From contig NC_011144.1 in NCBI RefSeq assembly GCF_000017265.1, positions 310,001 to 374,000 on the forward strand: DNA of 64,000 bases, written 5' to 3'. Below, piece by piece: positions 17,031 through 22,791 of the stretch (positions are counted from its first letter, which is position 1; every line of letters begins with the position of its first letter). The translations under genes were made by a program, and so were the position numbers. This DNA is from Phenylobacterium zucineum HLK1. GTDB lineage: Bacteria > Pseudomonadota > Alphaproteobacteria > Caulobacterales > Caulobacteraceae. The notes beneath the pieces were generated by a model. It was not told the origin of the DNA, did not search any database, and was given only the letters and a program-made list of their open reading frames with translations.

Positions 17031-18596
17031 TTGACCGACACCGACGCCGCCGCGTCCTGGCGGGCGCTTGACGCGGCCGGGGAGGCCGCCGCCCAGCGTT
17101 CGATCGCGGGCCTGTTCGAGGCCGAGCCGGACCGGGCCTCCCGCCTGACCTTCGAGGCCGCGGGCCTGGTCCTCGACCTCTCCAAGCAGCCCTGGTCCCA
17201 GGCCGACGTCGGGACCATGCTGGACCTCGCCCGCGCGTCGGGAGTGGAGGCGGCCCGCGCGGCCCTGTTCGCCGGCGAGGTGGTCAACCGCTCCGAGGGG
17301 CGGCCGGCCCTGCACATGGCTCTGCGCGCGCCGGAGGGGGCCGGCTTCGCCGCGGCGGGCGTCCCCGTTTCGGGCGAGGTCGAGACCACGCGCGCGAAGA
17401 TGAAGGCCTTCGCCGGGGAGGTCCGCTCGGGCGCCCGGCGCGGGGCGACCGGCCGGCCGTTCAAGGCCATCGTCCACATCGGCATCGGCGGCTCCGACCT
17501 CGGGCCGCGGCTCATCTGGGAAGCGCTGCGGCCGCTAGAGCCCGCCCTCGACCTGCGCTTCGTCGCCAACGTCGATCCGGCCGAACTGGCCCAGGCCCTG
17601 ACCGGCCTCGATCCGGCGGAGACGCTGGTGGTCACCGTCTCCAAGACCTTCACCACCCTCGAGACCCTGACCAACGCCGAGGCCGCGCGGGCCTGGCTCC
17701 GCGCCGCGCTCGGCGAAGCGTCGGACAGCCACCTCGTCGCCGTCTCGGCCGCGCCCGACAAGGCGCGGGGGTTCGGCGTCCCGGAGGACCAGGTGTTCGC
17801 CTTCTGGGACTGGGTCGGCGGCCGCTATTCGCTGTGGTCGGCGGTGGGCCTCTCCTGCGCCGTCGCCCTGGGCTGGGAGGCGTTCGAGGCGCTGCACGCC
17901 GGCGCGGCGGCGATGGACGTCCACTTCCGGGACGCCGCCCTGGACGCCAACCTGCCGGTCCTGCTGGCGCTCGCCCACGTCTTCAACCGAAACGGCCTTG
18001 GCCGGCCGATCCGCGCGGTGGTCCCCTACGCCCAGCGCCTTCGCCTGCTGCCCCCCTTTCTCCAGCAGCTGGAGATGGAATCGAACGGCAAGCGGGTCAC
18101 CGCCGACGGCCGCCCGGTTCCGCGCCCGACCGCCGCCAGCGTGTTCGGCGACGCCGGCACCAACGGCCAGCACGCCTTCTTCCAGCTCCTGCACCAGGGA
18201 ACCGATGTCATCCCCGTGGACATCGTCGCCGTCCGCCAGGGCTCCGAGGGCGATCCGGCGGCCCAGCGGAAGCTGCTCGCCAACGCCGTGGCCCAGGCCG
18301 AGGCCCTGATGGTCGGCCGCGCGATGCCGGACGATGCCCAGCGGGACTTCCCCGGCAACCGTCCGTCCAGCTTCCTGCTGCTGGACCGCCTGATCCCGCA
18401 GGCCCTCGGCGCGCTGATCGCCCTCTACGAGCACAAGACCTTCGTCGAGGGCGTCCTGTGGGGGATCAACAGCTTCGACCAGTGGGGCGTGGAGCTCGGC
18501 AAGACCCTCGCGGCCCGCATCCTCGAGGACCTGGAAGGCGCGGCCCAAAATCCCCACGACCCGTCGACCCAGGCGCTGATCGAGCGGCTGCGCTGA
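17031..18596 (+). CDS. pgi: Glucose-6-phosphate isomerase
   Basis: Interconverts glucose-6-phosphate and fructose-6-phosphate in the cytosol. Length is 521 residues. Both family signatures are visible: FWDWVGGRYSLWSAVGLS in the middle and NSFDQWGVELGK near the C-terminus; the phosphate-binding HIGIGGSDLGP is near residue 150. The start is a TTG at 17031 preceded by AAGGGGGATGC at good spacing; the ATG inside that string is out of frame. Transcription continues toward the his leader only across a repeat at 18600. Confidence 0.94.
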   Translation: MTDTDAAASWRALDAAGEAAAQRSIAGLFEAEPDRASRLTFEAAGLVLDLSKQPWSQADVGTMLDLARASGVEAARAALFAGEVVNRSEGRPALHMALRAPEGAGFAAAGVPVSGEVETTRAKMKAFAGEVRSGARRGATGRPFKAIVHIGIGGSDLGPRLIWEALRPLEPALDLRFVANVDPAELAQALTGLDPAETLVVTVSKTFTTLETLTNAEAARAWLRAALGEASDSHLVAVSAAPDKARGFGVPEDQVFAFWDWVGGRYSLWSAVGLSCAVALGWEAFEALHAGAAAMDVHFRDAALDANLPVLLALAHVFNRNGLGRPIRAVVPYAQRLRLLPPFLQQLEMESNGKRVTADGRPVPRPTAASVFGDAGTNGQHAFFQLLHQGTDVIPVDIVAVRQGSEGDPAAQRKLLANAVAQAEALMVGRAMPDDAQRDFPGNRPSSFLLLDRLIPQALGALIALYEHKTFVEGVLWGINSFDQWGVELGKTLAARILEDLEGAAQNPHDPSTQALIERLR

Positions 18597-18599
18597 CCG

Positions 18600-18706
18600 C
18601 CCTCCTCTCCCCCCGCGAAGCGGAGAGGGAGAGGGTAGGGAGAGGGCGGCGCGCAGCGCCGTGCGGCCGCTCCCTCGCTCTGCTCGGGGGAGAGGAGGGG
18701 CGTGCG
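18600..18706. repeat. Intergenic repeat, CTCTCCC family
   Basis: The stretch reads CTCCTCTCCCCCCGCGAAGC...GGAGAGGGAGAGGG, followed by a second arm CTCCCTCGCTCTGCTCGGGGGAGAGGAGG. It lies between pgi and the his leader and matches the other family members in this window. It may separate the two transcription units. Confidence 0.7.
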
Positions 18707-18714
18707 TGACTCTC

Positions 18715-18744
18715 CGCATCGTCTCCGCTATAGCCCCGCCCGTC
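18715..18744 (+). promoter_or_regulatory. Putative his operon promoter (-10 region)
   Basis: TATAGC at 18729-18734 (in CGCTATAGCC) resembles a -10 element. It would place the transcript start about 18741-18744, at or within a few bases of the leader ATG at 18745. No ribosome-binding site precedes that ATG. Together these suggest a leaderless or nearly leaderless start. A convincing -35 was not seen. Confidence 0.4.
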
Positions 18745-18822
18745 ATGACGCGGTTCGCGCACCACCACGGCCATCACCACCATCCGACCCCGGCGGGTTC
18801 GGACGGCGGCCGCGTGGCTTAG
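18745..18822 (+). CDS. hisL: Histidine operon leader peptide
   Basis: A 25-codon ORF ending in TAG at 18820. Codons 6-13 are His-His-His-Gly-His-His-His-His (18760-18783), so 7 of 8 are His. In attenuation systems the ribosome stalls on such a run when charged tRNA-His is short. The ORF is 91 bases before hisS and overlaps the first arms of an attenuator (next entry). It has no similarity to a functional protein, and random occurrence of 7 His codons in front of his genes is very unlikely. The symbol is used by analogy with enteric hisL; this is not a sequence homology claim. Confidence 0.85.
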   Translation: MTRFAHHHGHHHHPTPAGSDGGRVA

Positions 18823-18872
18823 AGAGCGCGACCTCCCCGAAGCCCCGCCGATGCGGACGGGGCTGTTCTTCT
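18784..18872 (+). promoter_or_regulatory. Transcription attenuator of the hisS-hisZ-hisG operon
   Basis: Four arms can be paired by eye. Arms 1:2: CCGACCC (18784-18790) with GGGTTCGG (18795-18802, one bulged T). Arms 2:3 (antiterminator): CGGCGGGTTCGG (18791-18802) with CCGAA (18837-18841) and CCCGCCG (18844-18850), 12 pairs with a 2-base bulge. Arms 3:4 (terminator): AGCCCCGCCG (18841-18850) with CGG-A-CGGGGCT (18854-18864), loop ATG, followed by GTTCTTCT. Arm 1 starts at the base after the last His codon, so a ribosome stalled there would cover arm 1 and free arm 2 to block the terminator. Confidence 0.8.
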
Positions 18873-18913
18873 GACAAGCGCCGTCCGTCCCTCAGACTTC
18901 CCGAGAGACGACG

Positions 18914-20458
18914 ATGACCGAACCTTCCCCAACTGCCTCCTTGAGCGCGCAGGCCGCAGCCGGTAAGCGCCCAGCCATGGCCCAAGACCCGCAACGCCCC
19001 GAAGCCCGCACGCCGCGCGGCTTCGTCGACCGCCGAGCCCGCGACGTGGTCGCCGAGCGGCAGATCCTGACCGCCGTCTCAGGAGTCTATGAGCGCTGGG
19101 GCTTCGAGCCGCTGGAGACCGGGGCGTTCGAATACGCCGACGCCCTGGGCAAGTTCCTGCCCGACGCCGACCGTCCGAACGAGGGCGTCTTCGCCCTGCA
19201 GGACGACGACGAGCAGTGGATGGCGCTGCGCTACGACCTGACTGCGCCGCTGGCCCGCTTCGCCGCCCAGAACTGGGAGACCCTGCCCAAGCCGTTCCGC
19301 CGCTACGCCTACGGGCCGGTCTGGCGCAACGAGAAGCCGGGGCCGGGGCGCTTCCGCGAGTTCGTCCAGTGCGACGCCGACACGGTGGGCTCGGCCCGTC
19401 CCGAGGCCGACGCCGAGATCATCGCCATGGCCGTGCAGGGCCTGGAGGCCGCGGGCCTGCCGGCCGGCTCGGCGGTCATCAAGATCAACAACCGCAAGCT
19501 GCTGAACGGCCTGATGGCGGCGGCCGGGGTGACCGACGAGGCCCAGAAGCTCGGCGTGCTGCGCGCGGTCGACAAGCTGGACCGCCTGGGCGCGGACGGC
19601 GTGCGCCTGCTGCTGGGCGAGGGCCGCCTCGACGAGTCCGGCGCCTTCACCAAGGGGGCGGGGCTCTCGGCCCAGTCCGCCGAACGGGTGCTGGCCTTCA
19701 CCGCCGCCGGCGTCGGCGGCCGGGCCGAAACCCTGGCCAAGCTGGCCGAGGTCGTCGGCGGCTCGGCCGAGGGCGACGAGGGCCTGGCCGAGCTGGCCGC
19801 CATCGACGCGGCCCTGTCGGCGCTCGGCGTCGGGCCCGACCGGGCGCTGTTCGACCCGGCCGTCGTGCGGGGCCTGGAGTACTACACGGGCGCGGTGTTC
19901 GAGGCCGAGCTCTTGCTCTCCACCACGGACGAGAAAGGACAGAAGGTCACCTTCGGCTCGATCGGCGGCGGCGGGCGCTACGATGACCTCGTGGCCCGCT
20001 TCACCGGCGAGCGGACGCCCGCCACCGGCTTCTCCTTCGGCGTCTCGCGCCTGGCCGCGGCCCTGCGCGCCGCCGGCCGTGACGCAGCCCGAAAGGGTCC
20101 CTGGGCCGTCCGCGGCCCGGTGGTGGTCATCGCCTTCGACCAGGCGCGCATGGCCGACTACTTCGCCCTGGCCGGCGAGATCCGCGCGGCGGGCGTCCCG
20201 GCGGAGGTCTACCTGGGAAGCTCGGGCATGAAGGCCCAGATGAAGTACGCCGACCGGCGCCTGTCGCCCGCGGCGGTCATCCTGGGCGAGGACGAGATCG
20301 CCGCCGGCACGGTCACCGTGAAGGACCTCGACCTCGGCCGCGAGCTGGCCAGCAAGGTGACCGACAACGCCGAGTGGCGCGAGCAGCGGCCCGGCCAGCA
20401 GACCATCGCCCGCGCCGAGCTGATCCCCGCCCTGCGCCGCATCCTGGACGCCGGCTGA
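18914..20458 (+). CDS. hisS: Histidyl-tRNA synthetase
   Basis: Class II aminoacyl-tRNA synthetase of 514 residues that charges tRNA-His in the cytosol. Visible motifs are motif 1-like YERWGFEPLETG, the motif 2 region RYAYGPVWRNEKPGPGRFREF, the HisRS-specific RGLEYYTGAVFE, and motif 3-like GGGGRYDDL; an anticodon-binding domain follows. It is the first gene of the operon behind the His leader and ends with TGATG into hisZ. Placing the synthetase under the same attenuator as the pathway genes means low charged tRNA-His would raise both charging and synthesis. Confidence 0.95.
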   Translation: MTEPSPTASLSAQAAAGKRPAMAQDPQRPEARTPRGFVDRRARDVVAERQILTAVSGVYERWGFEPLETGAFEYADALGKFLPDADRPNEGVFALQDDDEQWMALRYDLTAPLARFAAQNWETLPKPFRRYAYGPVWRNEKPGPGRFREFVQCDADTVGSARPEADAEIIAMAVQGLEAAGLPAGSAVIKINNRKLLNGLMAAAGVTDEAQKLGVLRAVDKLDRLGADGVRLLLGEGRLDESGAFTKGAGLSAQSAERVLAFTAAGVGGRAETLAKLAEVVGGSAEGDEGLAELAAIDAALSALGVGPDRALFDPAVVRGLEYYTGAVFEAELLLSTTDEKGQKVTFGSIGGGGRYDDLVARFTGERTPATGFSFGVSRLAAALRAAGRDAARKGPWAVRGPVVVIAFDQARMADYFALAGEIRAAGVPAEVYLGSSGMKAQMKYADRRLSPAAVILGEDEIAAGTVTVKDLDLGRELASKVTDNAEWREQRPGQQTIARAELIPALRRILDAG

Positions 20459-21609
20459 TGCGCGTCGAGCCGCCCGTGCCGGAGGCGGCGCTCGCCGCCA
20501 TCCGCGCGCCCCTGGAGGCCGCCGGCGCGACTCGCGCCGACGCGCCCCTGCTGCAGCCGCTGAACCTCTTCCTGGACTTGGCCGGGGAGGCGATGCGCGC
20601 GCGGCTGTTCGTGGTGCAGGCCGAGGGCGGGGCCGAGGCGTGCCTGCGCCCCGACTTCACCGTCGCCATCGCCCGCGCCCACCTGGAGTCGGGCAGGCGC
20701 GACGGGCGCTATCTCTACGAGGGCGCCGCCTTCCGCGCCTCTGCCGGCGCCGAGCGGCCCGAGGAGTTCCTGCAGGTGGGGTTGGAGCTGTTCGCCCCCC
20801 AGAGCCAGGGGGGCGACGGTGCGGCCGAGGCCGCCGACGCCGAGATCGCCGGCCTGGCCTGGCGCGCGTGCGCGGCCGGCGGGCGGGCCGACCTCTCCCT
20901 GCGGCTCGGCGATGTCGGCCTGTTCGGCCCGTTCATCGAGAGCCTGTCCCTGGCCGAGGGGCTCGCCGCGCGGCTCAAGCGGGTGGCGGGCCGGCCGCGC
21001 CTGCTGCAGGCCGAGCTGGCGCGCACCGGCGAGACGGCCGGCGGCGCGCGCGGAACCCTGGCCAGCATCCTGTCGGGCCTGTCGCAGGCCGAGGCCGGCG
21101 CCCTGCTGGAGGAGGTCTGGGCCTTGGCCGGCGTCGAGCCCGTGGGCGGCCGCGGGCCGGCCGAGATCGCCGCGCGGCTGGTGCGCAAGGCCGAGGCGGC
21201 CGCCGCGCCGGCGCTCACCGACGACCAGGCGGGCGCCATCCGCGCGTTCATGGCCATCGACGATTCGCCCGACGCGGCCCTCGCCCGGGTGGGCGAGCTC
21301 GCCGGCCGCAACGACAGGGCGCTGAATGCGGCGCTGGAGGGCTGGGCGCGGCGCTTGGCCGAGCTCGCCAGGGTCGCCGACCCGCACCGGATGCGGTTCG
21401 CCCCCGCCCTCGGCCACGCCTTCGACTACTACGACGGCCTGACCTTCGAAGTGGTCAGCGAGGCCCTCGGCCCCGAGCGGCCGGTGGCCGTCGGCGGCCG
21501 CTACGACGGCCTGCTGGCCCGCCTTGGGGCTGGCCTCGGGGGCGGCGAAGGGAGGGCGGTGGGCTGCATGGTCCGGCCCTGGCGCGCATGGGACGGAGGC
21601 GAGCAATGA
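20458..21609 (+). CDS. hisZ: ATP phosphoribosyltransferase regulatory subunit
   Basis: A 383-residue HisRS catalytic-domain paralogue that does not charge tRNA but binds HisG and gives it histidine feedback control. It retains synthetase-like strings (LRPDFTVAIAR, GRYLYEGAAFR, HAFDYYDGLTFE, GGRYDGLLARLG) but lacks an anticodon-binding domain. The start at 20458 overlaps the hisS stop by one base; its own stop overlaps the hisG start by four (ATGA). Tight coupling with hisG supports complex formation. Confidence 0.92.
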   Translation: MRVEPPVPEAALAAIRAPLEAAGATRADAPLLQPLNLFLDLAGEAMRARLFVVQAEGGAEACLRPDFTVAIARAHLESGRRDGRYLYEGAAFRASAGAERPEEFLQVGLELFAPQSQGGDGAAEAADAEIAGLAWRACAAGGRADLSLRLGDVGLFGPFIESLSLAEGLAARLKRVAGRPRLLQAELARTGETAGGARGTLASILSGLSQAEAGALLEEVWALAGVEPVGGRGPAEIAARLVRKAEAAAAPALTDDQAGAIRAFMAIDDSPDAALARVGELAGRNDRALNAALEGWARRLAELARVADPHRMRFAPALGHAFDYYDGLTFEVVSEALGPERPVAVGGRYDGLLARLGAGLGGGEGRAVGCMVRPWRAWDGGEQ

Positions 21610-22556
21610 GCGAGCTGGTCATCGCGGTCCCGTCCAAGGGCCGCCTGAAGGAGCAGGTGGAGGCCTGGCTGGCCGACGCCGGCCTCGACCTTTCCGTCAC
21701 CGGCGGGGCGCGCGGCTACATGGCGGGCCTCAAGGGGCTGCCGGGCGCCCAGGTGCGCCTCCTGTCGGCCGGCGACATCGCCGAGGCCCTGGACGCCGGC
21801 GAGGTCCACCTCGGGATCACCGGCGAAGACCTGCTGCGCGAGCGCGGCGAGGACCTCGACTCCCGCGTCCTGCTGTTGCGGCCGCTGGGCTTCGGCCGCG
21901 CCGACCTCGTCGTCGCCGCACCGAAGAGCTGGCTCGACGTCGAGACCATGGCCGACCTCGAGGAGGTCGCCGCCGAGCACCTGGCCCGCACCGGCCGGCG
22001 CATGCGCGTGGCGACCAAGTACCTCTCCCAGACCCGGGCCTTCTTCGCCCGCCACGGCATCGCCGATTACCGCATCGCCGAGTCGGGCGGGGCGACCGAG
22101 GGCGCGCCGGCGGCCGGCGCGGCCGAGCTGGTGGTGGACATCACCACCACCGGGGCGACCCTGGCCGCCAACGGCCTGAAGGTGCTGGCCGACGGGGTGA
22201 TCCTGAAGAGCCAGGCGCAGCTCGCCGCCAGCCTGCGGGCCGAGTGGGGCGAATCGGCCCTCGCGGCGGCCGAGCGCCTGCTGCGGGCGGTGGAGGCCCG
22301 GGCCGCGGCCCGGCGCAGCGCGACCCTGATCTGGCCATCCCGTGGCGACGCCGCCGAGGCCGAGGCGGTGGACCGTCTCGTCGCCGCCGGCGCCTCGCGC
22401 CGACCCAACGGCCTGCTGGTCGAGATGGGGCAGGTGGCCGAGGCCGCTCAGGCGCTTACCGCCGCGGGCCTCGGGCCGGTCACAGCCGCCCAGCCCGAGT
22501 TCGTCTTTGACGTGAGCTGCCCAGCGCTTACAACCCTCAAGTCCCGGTTGTTTTGA
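21606..22556 (+). CDS. hisG: ATP phosphoribosyltransferase catalytic subunit
   Basis: First enzyme of histidine synthesis, joining ATP and PRPP. The N-terminus (AVPSKGRLKEQVEAWL), the LGITGEDLLRERGED segment and the PRPP-binding region near VDITTTGATLAANGLKVL are clear. At 316 residues it is longer than the short-form HisG (about 200-230) that normally pairs with HisZ, with about 90 extra residues after the PRPP motif ending DVSCPALTTLKSRLF. That tail could be a relic of the long form's regulatory domain. The stop codon lies inside a palindrome (22551-22570). Confidence 0.92.
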   Translation: MSELVIAVPSKGRLKEQVEAWLADAGLDLSVTGGARGYMAGLKGLPGAQVRLLSAGDIAEALDAGEVHLGITGEDLLRERGEDLDSRVLLLRPLGFGRADLVVAAPKSWLDVETMADLEEVAAEHLARTGRRMRVATKYLSQTRAFFARHGIADYRIAESGGATEGAPAAGAAELVVDITTTGATLAANGLKVLADGVILKSQAQLAASLRAEWGESALAAAERLLRAVEARAAARRSATLIWPSRGDAAEAEAVDRLVAAGASRRPNGLLVEMGQVAEAAQALTAAGLGPVTAAQPEFVFDVSCPALTTLKSRLF

Positions 22557-22657: not shown

Positions 22658-22791
22658 CATCAGGCGAGAGACATGACGGCGCAAGTCCGAAGGTCTCCGG
22701 CGTTTCGGGGAGGAAACGCCCGCTCAATCAGAGCGACTGCTCAAGACGGCCCGCTGCGATTATCCCCCGCAGCGGGCCGGTTCTTTTTGAG
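22650..22791 (+). ncRNA. Candidate structured small RNA between hisG and the PCu(A)C gene
   Basis: A 140-base noncoding stretch between convergent genes with a row of hairpins: GTCAT/ATGAC (22656-22660 with 22673-22677), GGCGTTTC/GAAACGCC (22699-22706 with 22713-22720, loop GGGGAG) and CGCTC/GAGCG (22721-22725 with 22731-22735). It ends in a strong terminator, GGCCCGCTGCG/CGCAGCGGGCC (22748-22758 with 22768-22778), followed by TTCTTTTT. The organisation is that of an independent small RNA. It does not match a family I recognise. An alternative is a long processed 3' UTR of the his mRNA. Confidence 0.45.
22748..22788 (+). terminator. Intrinsic terminator after candidate RNA
   Basis: An 11-bp perfect stem with a 9-base loop, followed by GGTTCTTTTT. 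It points rightward. Confidence 0.8.

Follow-up and report, generated by a model that had tools for sequence, protein, structure and literature searches.

Between pgi and the histidyl-tRNA synthetase gene hisS in the window (the whole 64-kb stretch of DNA analyzed here) lies a leader region that carries a short His-rich reading frame and, behind it, a series of RNA arms reaching as far as the hisS start codon. hisS is followed by hisZ and by hisG, the latter named by sequence recognition and synteny. The features of the locus are as follows.

17031-18596: pgi, the upstream neighbour
18691-18858, minus strand: match to Rfam RF01528, "Caulobacter sRNA CC3513" (41.7 bits, cut-off 40)
18706-18734, plus strand: predicted promoter P1, GTGACTC-N14-GCTATAGC
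18745-18822, plus strand: His-rich leader reading frame MTRFAHHHGHHHHPTPAGSDGGRVA, 25 codons, ATG at 18745, TAG at 18820-18822
18760-18783, plus strand: His codons 6-8 and 10-13, where a shortage of charged tRNA-His is predicted to stall the ribosome
18784-18790, plus strand: arm 1, CCGACCC, immediately 3′ of the last His codon, able to pair with GGGTTCGG (18795-18802)
18791-18802, plus strand: arm 2, CGGCGGGTTCGG, partner in hairpin 1:2 and also the 5′ side of 2:3
18837-18850, plus strand: arm 3, CCGAAGCCCCGCCG, predicted to pair with arm 2 (stalled) or arm 4 (unstalled)
18841-18864, plus strand: hairpin 3:4, AGCCCCG...CGGGGCT, followed by GTTCTTCT
18853-18864, plus strand: arm 4, core GGACGGGGCT at 18855-18864, predicted to pair with arm 3 or arm 5
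18865-18872, plus strand: weak T-rich tail GTTCTTCT after hairpin 3:4, a possible terminator here, not conserved in relatives
18877-18893, plus strand: arm 5, AGCGCCGTCCGTCCCTC, predicted to pair with arm 4 (18855-18864 with 18877-18886) or arm 6 (18882-18893 with 18903-18913)
18903-18913, plus strand: arm 6, GAGAGACGACG, the hisS ribosome-binding region just 5′ of the ATG, predicted to be hidden by arm 5 when unstalled
18914-20458, plus strand: hisS, histidyl-tRNA synthetase (TIGR00442, 372.8 bits)
18941-18968, plus strand: predicted promoter P2, TTGAGCG ... CGGTAAGC, 8 nt upstream of an in-frame ATG at 18977
20458-21609, plus strand: hisZ, ATP phosphoribosyltransferase regulatory subunit, start overlapping the hisS stop (TGATG)
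21606-22556, plus strand: hisG, ATP phosphoribosyltransferase, start overlapping the hisZ stop (ATGA)
22666-22791, plus strand: small RNA CrfA (RF01527, 67.1 bits), directly 3′ of hisG

The overlapping stop and start codons make translational coupling of hisS, hisZ and hisG probable, and the three genes therefore probably form one translationally coupled operon. In the first set of loci hisZ and hisG were both present at 37 of 39 leader-bearing loci versus 10 of 41 leaderless ones, a comparison confounded by phylogeny and contig ends.

Seven His codons stand among codons 6 to 13 of the leader, and no other reading frame of 8-50 codons on either strand of the 64-kb window has at least four His per ten codons. 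A His-rich leader occurs upstream of hisS at 70 distinct loci from Caulobacter, Phenylobacterium and close relatives, where it is 23-26 codons long, contains 4-7 His with both CAC and CAT in use, and is variable in peptide sequence apart from the His codons. It is this recurrence at 70 loci, together with the frame being the sole one of its kind in the window, that excludes a chance origin of the leader, and not fold energy, as the single-sequence fold of 18745-18913 is no stronger than that of shuffles (z = -0.82).

The distribution of the leader is narrow. In a set of 80 hisS loci collected by protein similarity, about half have a His-rich frame of the same length that starts some 155-285 nt ahead of the hisS portion matched; the carriers are Caulobacter, Phenylobacterium and related MAGs, and the leader was absent from the Brevundimonas and Asticcacaulis hisS loci of this set. 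Among named records, the nearest relatives of hisS come from Phenylobacterium and other Caulobacteraceae. None of the 30 best-scoring loci from other alphaproteobacteria had a His leader before hisS, and one clear case was found among 33 further loci. A covariance model of the attenuator built from 30 sequences matches 46 of 398 Caulobacterales genomes, including all 17 sampled from the window's genus, and the weak matches inspected in one other genus are asd leaders. In the Caulobacter-like genome G270, one locus (L152) has the His part of the leader missing or replaced and retains arms 2-6, making it a natural mutant.

The run HHHGHHHH resembles metal-binding runs, and a metal-binding small protein whose location before hisS is incidental would account for such a peptide. 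We regard this as scarcely credible, as the peptide precedes hisS in the loci found with attenuator arms directly behind it, and leaders of the same layout precede thrS paralogs, where they carry Thr runs, and asd, where they carry Thr/Lys codons. A region that serves chiefly as an antisense small RNA, with the sense features as by-products, is also very improbable. RF01528 does match the opposite strand both here and in related genomes; however, conservation tracks the His codons of the sense frame, the pairing partners extend into the hisS start, beyond the Rfam model, and the Rfam strand may be mis-assigned. Two accounts of the match are that the leader has an antisense RNA and that the Rfam entry gives the wrong strand. 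If the His leader is a regulatory switch, its overlap on the opposite strand also suggests an interpretation of the unexplained "sRNA" CC3513.

The pairings between the arms were assessed by comparison. Unconstrained RNAalifold selects 2:3 and 4:5 on the alignment, and 4:5 alone on a shorter alignment of 30 sequences, with pairs UA16/CG14 and UA20/CG5; pair 35:63 of this hairpin is intact throughout, as UA in 16 sequences and as CG in the other 14. Pair counting draws on related sequences and its figures overstate independence: 96% of the cells in 4:5 are paired and 19 have changed on both sides, a level that none of 500 shuffles reached and that falls sharply when the arms are slid, with 91.8% paired for 3:4. 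In a larger set the key pair of 4:5 matches at 62 of the 66 loci scored at both arms (39 T/A and 23 C/G, alongside one T/G, one C/A and two G/A). The tree requires at least five changes in arm 5 and at least eight in arm 4 at this pair, and independent-pair tests on the tree had too few pairs for significance.

Hairpin 5:6 slides along the alignment, and arm swapping between species was used in place of column counting. Again over related sequences, so that independence is overstated, the cognate 3:4, 4:5 and 5:6 pairings were each stronger than all 2000 permutations, with weak support for 2:3 (permutation 0.04). Covariation in 1:2 was sought in the same way and not found (0.95), the controls 1:4, 3:5, 3:6, 2:4 and 2:5 gave no excess pairing, and 4:6, which was expected to be neutral, was unexpectedly above the permutations (0.0005). 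The clearest sign that 5:6 is real is that its letters change and pairing is kept: most loci have CGTCG/CGACG, two have CATCCCTG/CAGGGAT (L038, L079), three have TCCCT/AGGGA (L053, L060, L062) and one has GTCCTC/GAGGAC (L052). Arm 5 has the alignment consensus GCTYCRTCCGTCGA. The leader, its His codons and the mutually exclusive alternatives 3:4, 4:5 and 5:6 are thus conserved with coordinated changes, hairpin 2:3 weakly so, and 1:2 is without covariation.

A previous sequence-only reading of this DNA had proposed a 25-codon frame with seven His among codons 6-13, an arm 1, an antiterminator and a terminator hairpin, and every one of these sequence elements lies where it was placed. The comparison of relatives that it suggested recovered conserved His runs, at the 70 distinct loci described above, and compensatory pairing for 3:4, as well as for 4:5 and 5:6, which it had not listed; 2:3 came out weakly and 1:2 failed. 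Its inventory of 1:2, 2:3 and 3:4 was correctly positioned but missed the conserved arms 5 and 6 inside its own interval, and the folding of 18745-18913 that it proposed as a check gave an energy no better than shuffles.

We modeled two states of the leader, an unstalled one comprising the RNA left exposed by a ribosome at the leader stop codon and a stalled one with the ribosome on the last His codon. Unstalled, most of the sequences folded form 3:4 and 5:6. Stalled, many form 4:5, often together with 2:3, and some retain 3:4. For 34 of 39 sequences, opening 14 nt together with the hisS start codon costs more in the unstalled than in the stalled state. Across 35 sequences the unstalled cost is 10.4 kcal/mol for native spacers versus 6.9 kcal/mol for shuffled ones, and in the stalled state native upstream RNA gives 6.8 versus 7.9 kcal/mol for shuffled upstream RNA (p = 0.001), a modest gain. 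These calculations point to a conserved hairpin that would hide the hisS start across the 35 sequences, an effect that is not significant for the window alone, where the costs of 7.1 (unstalled) and 4.8 (stalled) are unremarkable against shuffles (6.7 +/- 2.3). In the stalled minimum-energy fold of the window, arm 3 pairs with 18804-18809 and not with arm 2, and arm 2 pairs with the hisS start.

T-tails after hairpin 3:4 were counted over ten bases from the end of GGGGC, located by motif since the automatic hairpin search sometimes chose 4:5. Among the 70 loci, window included, 54 have at most three T in ten and just six have 5 or 6; the window, with a weak and interrupted run of six T in ten, is among the highest. 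A stem followed by a U-tract, as expected of a conserved intrinsic terminator, is therefore not found across the 70 loci, and in the window the weak U-tract may cause some extra transcription termination. A terminator scan of the window did not list the hairpin 3:4 site, although such a scan is uninformative for so GC-rich a genome.

Translation is the likelier output, because relatives mostly lack the U-tract and the hisS start is masked by an additional arm. We propose that this is a ribosome-operated, histidine-sensing leader that probably acts mainly on hisS translation and, by way of the gene overlaps, on that of hisZ and hisG. From the conserved features we infer that ribosomes stall at the leader His codons, that the arms switch, that hisS responds and that hisZ and hisG are coupled to it. 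In this model, the His-rich peptide would be translated from a leaderless or near-leaderless P1 mRNA during synthesis of the transcript. When charged tRNA-His is plentiful, the ribosome would reach the leader stop codon, 3:4 would form and arm 5 would be left free to pair with arm 6, hiding the hisS start. Conversely, a shortage of charged tRNA-His would stall the ribosome on the His codons with arm 1 covered, so that arm 2 and its neighbours take arm 3, 4:5 forms and the hisS start is exposed. If correct, a single RNA switch in the model organism Caulobacter links tRNA-His charging with the initial step of histidine synthesis, and amino-acid starvation acts on the translation of a synthetase gene via a leader peptide.

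It is somewhat unlikely, though worth weighing, that both outputs operate, with the leader lowering transcription (by intrinsic termination in some genomes, or through Rho when hisS is untranslated) as well as translation. Untranslated mRNA is commonly exposed to Rho, and both the window and the thrS attenuators combine arms 4, 5 and 6 with a T-rich tail; against this, the T-tail is missing in most hisS relatives. Classical transcription attenuation, in which 3:4 and the T-rich tail form an intrinsic terminator and stalling favours 2:3 and read-through into hisS-hisZ-hisG, appears to us distinctly unlikely. It draws on the six T in ten that follow the hairpin in the window, on the T-runs of leaders of the same design elsewhere (GNAT L144, thrS L137/L138) and on the ilv attenuation through a leader coding sequence reported for C. 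crescentus in Schrader 2014 (PMC4117421), but it has to accommodate the poor T-tails at 54 of 70 loci and a site missing from the terminator scan, and gives no role to the conserved arms 5 and 6. Of the mutually exclusive terminator put forward in the sequence-only reading, the conserved alternative hairpins hold and control by intrinsic termination is not supported.

A -10 element of the GCTATA type is recognizable in relatives, with CTATA beginning 13-17 nt upstream of the leader start codon at 66 of 70 loci, from which we infer that the 5′ end of the P1 mRNA lies at the leader ATG or within about 4 nt of it. A sigma-70 scan of the window was uninformative for such a GC-rich genome. P1 transcripts would start hisS at 18914, and an alternative in-frame start lies at 18977, behind P2. 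Sequences resembling P2, TTG(A/C).. - GGTAAGC - ATG, lie between arm 6 and hisS at about 20 of 70 leader-bearing loci, and many leaderless hisS loci have a -10-like GCTTAA(G/T)C immediately 5′ of the hisS ATG. P2 is probably an older promoter, predicted from these motifs, that makes a leaderless hisS mRNA bypassing the attenuator. Such a bypass would make the basal supply of hisS independent of histidine and would leave the window with two possible starts.

The proposal that a His leader heads the overlapping hisS-hisZ-hisG genes is borne out, and the amino acid sensed fits the genes. The further suggestion that one signal sets both charging and synthesis is weakened by the probable leaderless transcript from P2.

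A group of nine loci (L034, L036, L037, L043, L046, L048, L052, L079 and L105) have a second short reading frame, often containing ...PRLAARA..., that ends near the hisS start and in most of them begins at the hidden ATG; in several relatives this is the first ATG after arm 6. In the window's clade the second frame appears joined to hisS, extending its N terminus.

Synthetase genes under leader control are, as such, already known. In the E. coli pheST attenuator, the pheM leader peptide controls a tRNA synthetase operon through its cognate codons. That system differs from the hisS leader in using Phe and an intrinsic terminator, and its operon holds no biosynthetic genes. The enteric his operon attenuator (RF00514) likewise combines a leader of His codons with a chain of alternative arms read by ribosome stalling (PMC9413887). 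Here, however, the leader heads hisS instead of hisG with the remaining biosynthetic genes, and the output is probably translational from a nearly leaderless mRNA; attenuators with translational variants are mentioned in the literature (PMC9413887). Neither RF00514 nor the T-box covariance model matched the window up to E = 5.

Closer to the present lineage, the Sinorhizobium meliloti trpL/rnTrpL attenuator is also alphaproteobacterial and has a leaderless leader frame, but it senses Trp and works by transcription attenuation with a released sRNA (PMC10117765). In C. crescentus, a close relative, a short leader coding sequence precedes the synthetase gene trpS, and the main text of that report (PMC4117421) does not mention hisS, while the sections covered analyze no alternative structure for trpS. 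Translational attenuators of the erm type resemble our model in that a ribosome stalled within the leader peptide exposes a ribosome-binding site that is otherwise hidden (PMC5118997); there, the stall is caused by antibiotics and not by uncharged tRNA.

The sequence-only reading knew of no description of such an arrangement. We found none for the hisS leader of Caulobacterales or other alphaproteobacteria in the freely readable literature searched, but the statement is right only in part: Naville and Gautheret 2010 (PMC2965389) predicted His leader peptides before a hisS paralog (hisS*) and hisZ in bacilli. Those leaders belong to Firmicutes, concern separate genes and paralogs and were found as premature terminators, and the sections covered of that paper describe no hisS-hisZ-hisG operon. 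Taken together, this suggests a known control trick joined to an unusual target, with an output that had gone unnoticed in the sequence-only reading.

Similar leaders stand before other genes. Leaders of thrS paralogs with Thr runs (for example MHRVAHLCTTTTTTTRFGG) have the same arm 5 motif, which pairs strongly with their ribosome-binding site, and they carry T-runs, as does an attenuator (GGGGCTTTTTTC) that precedes a GNAT gene in the genus of the window. It is tempting to group the hisS leader with those of thrS paralogs and asd, which have matching codons, and of GNAT genes, as six-arm alphaproteobacterial attenuators whose arm 5 serves both the release hairpin 4:5 and the start-hiding 5:6. 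In such a family charged tRNA would directly set the translation of synthetase and biosynthesis genes, with termination optional and often lost; we advance this tentatively, as an idea with a little less than an even chance of being right. The simplest reading is that the ancestral design had two outputs and that the hisS leader has kept mostly the translational one.

Individual leaders of these kinds were noted in several genomes. Thr-run leaders with the six-arm layout (MHRVAHLCTTTTTTTRFGGPDGVVMR; MSQMRKHQQVTTTWTADRRPRGVGLC) lie before short thrS-like genes in other alphaproteobacteria (L137, L138, L140). Leaders rich in Thr, Lys, Ile and Met (for example MLMTKTITSKTTCLGGAVSGVRKV) precede asd, named as aspartate-semialdehyde dehydrogenase by sequence recognition; they occur in Caulobacter, in a further genus of its family and in one other alphaproteobacterium (L142, L145, L146, L157, L141). 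Genes for GNAT-like acetyltransferases follow the leaders MTAFATLMHMTCRTAQAGSVRDVVR and MIAIAARACSNSNGPTGIVRRRAP (L143, L144, L147), with a clear T-run in L143 and L144. Finally, in a family of alphaproteobacteria with AT-rich genomes of 1.0-1.3 Mb (L222-L242; for example L230:1274), a short His-containing reading frame (MKNIVLNHTHHHTHAKHGLGN, MIKIYRSTHRHHFHAEHLLGQ, ...HAKLLLS) ends in a hairpin of the GCTAAGC/GCTTAGC type, followed by tRNA-His, hisS and hisZ, and is possibly an independent His leader.
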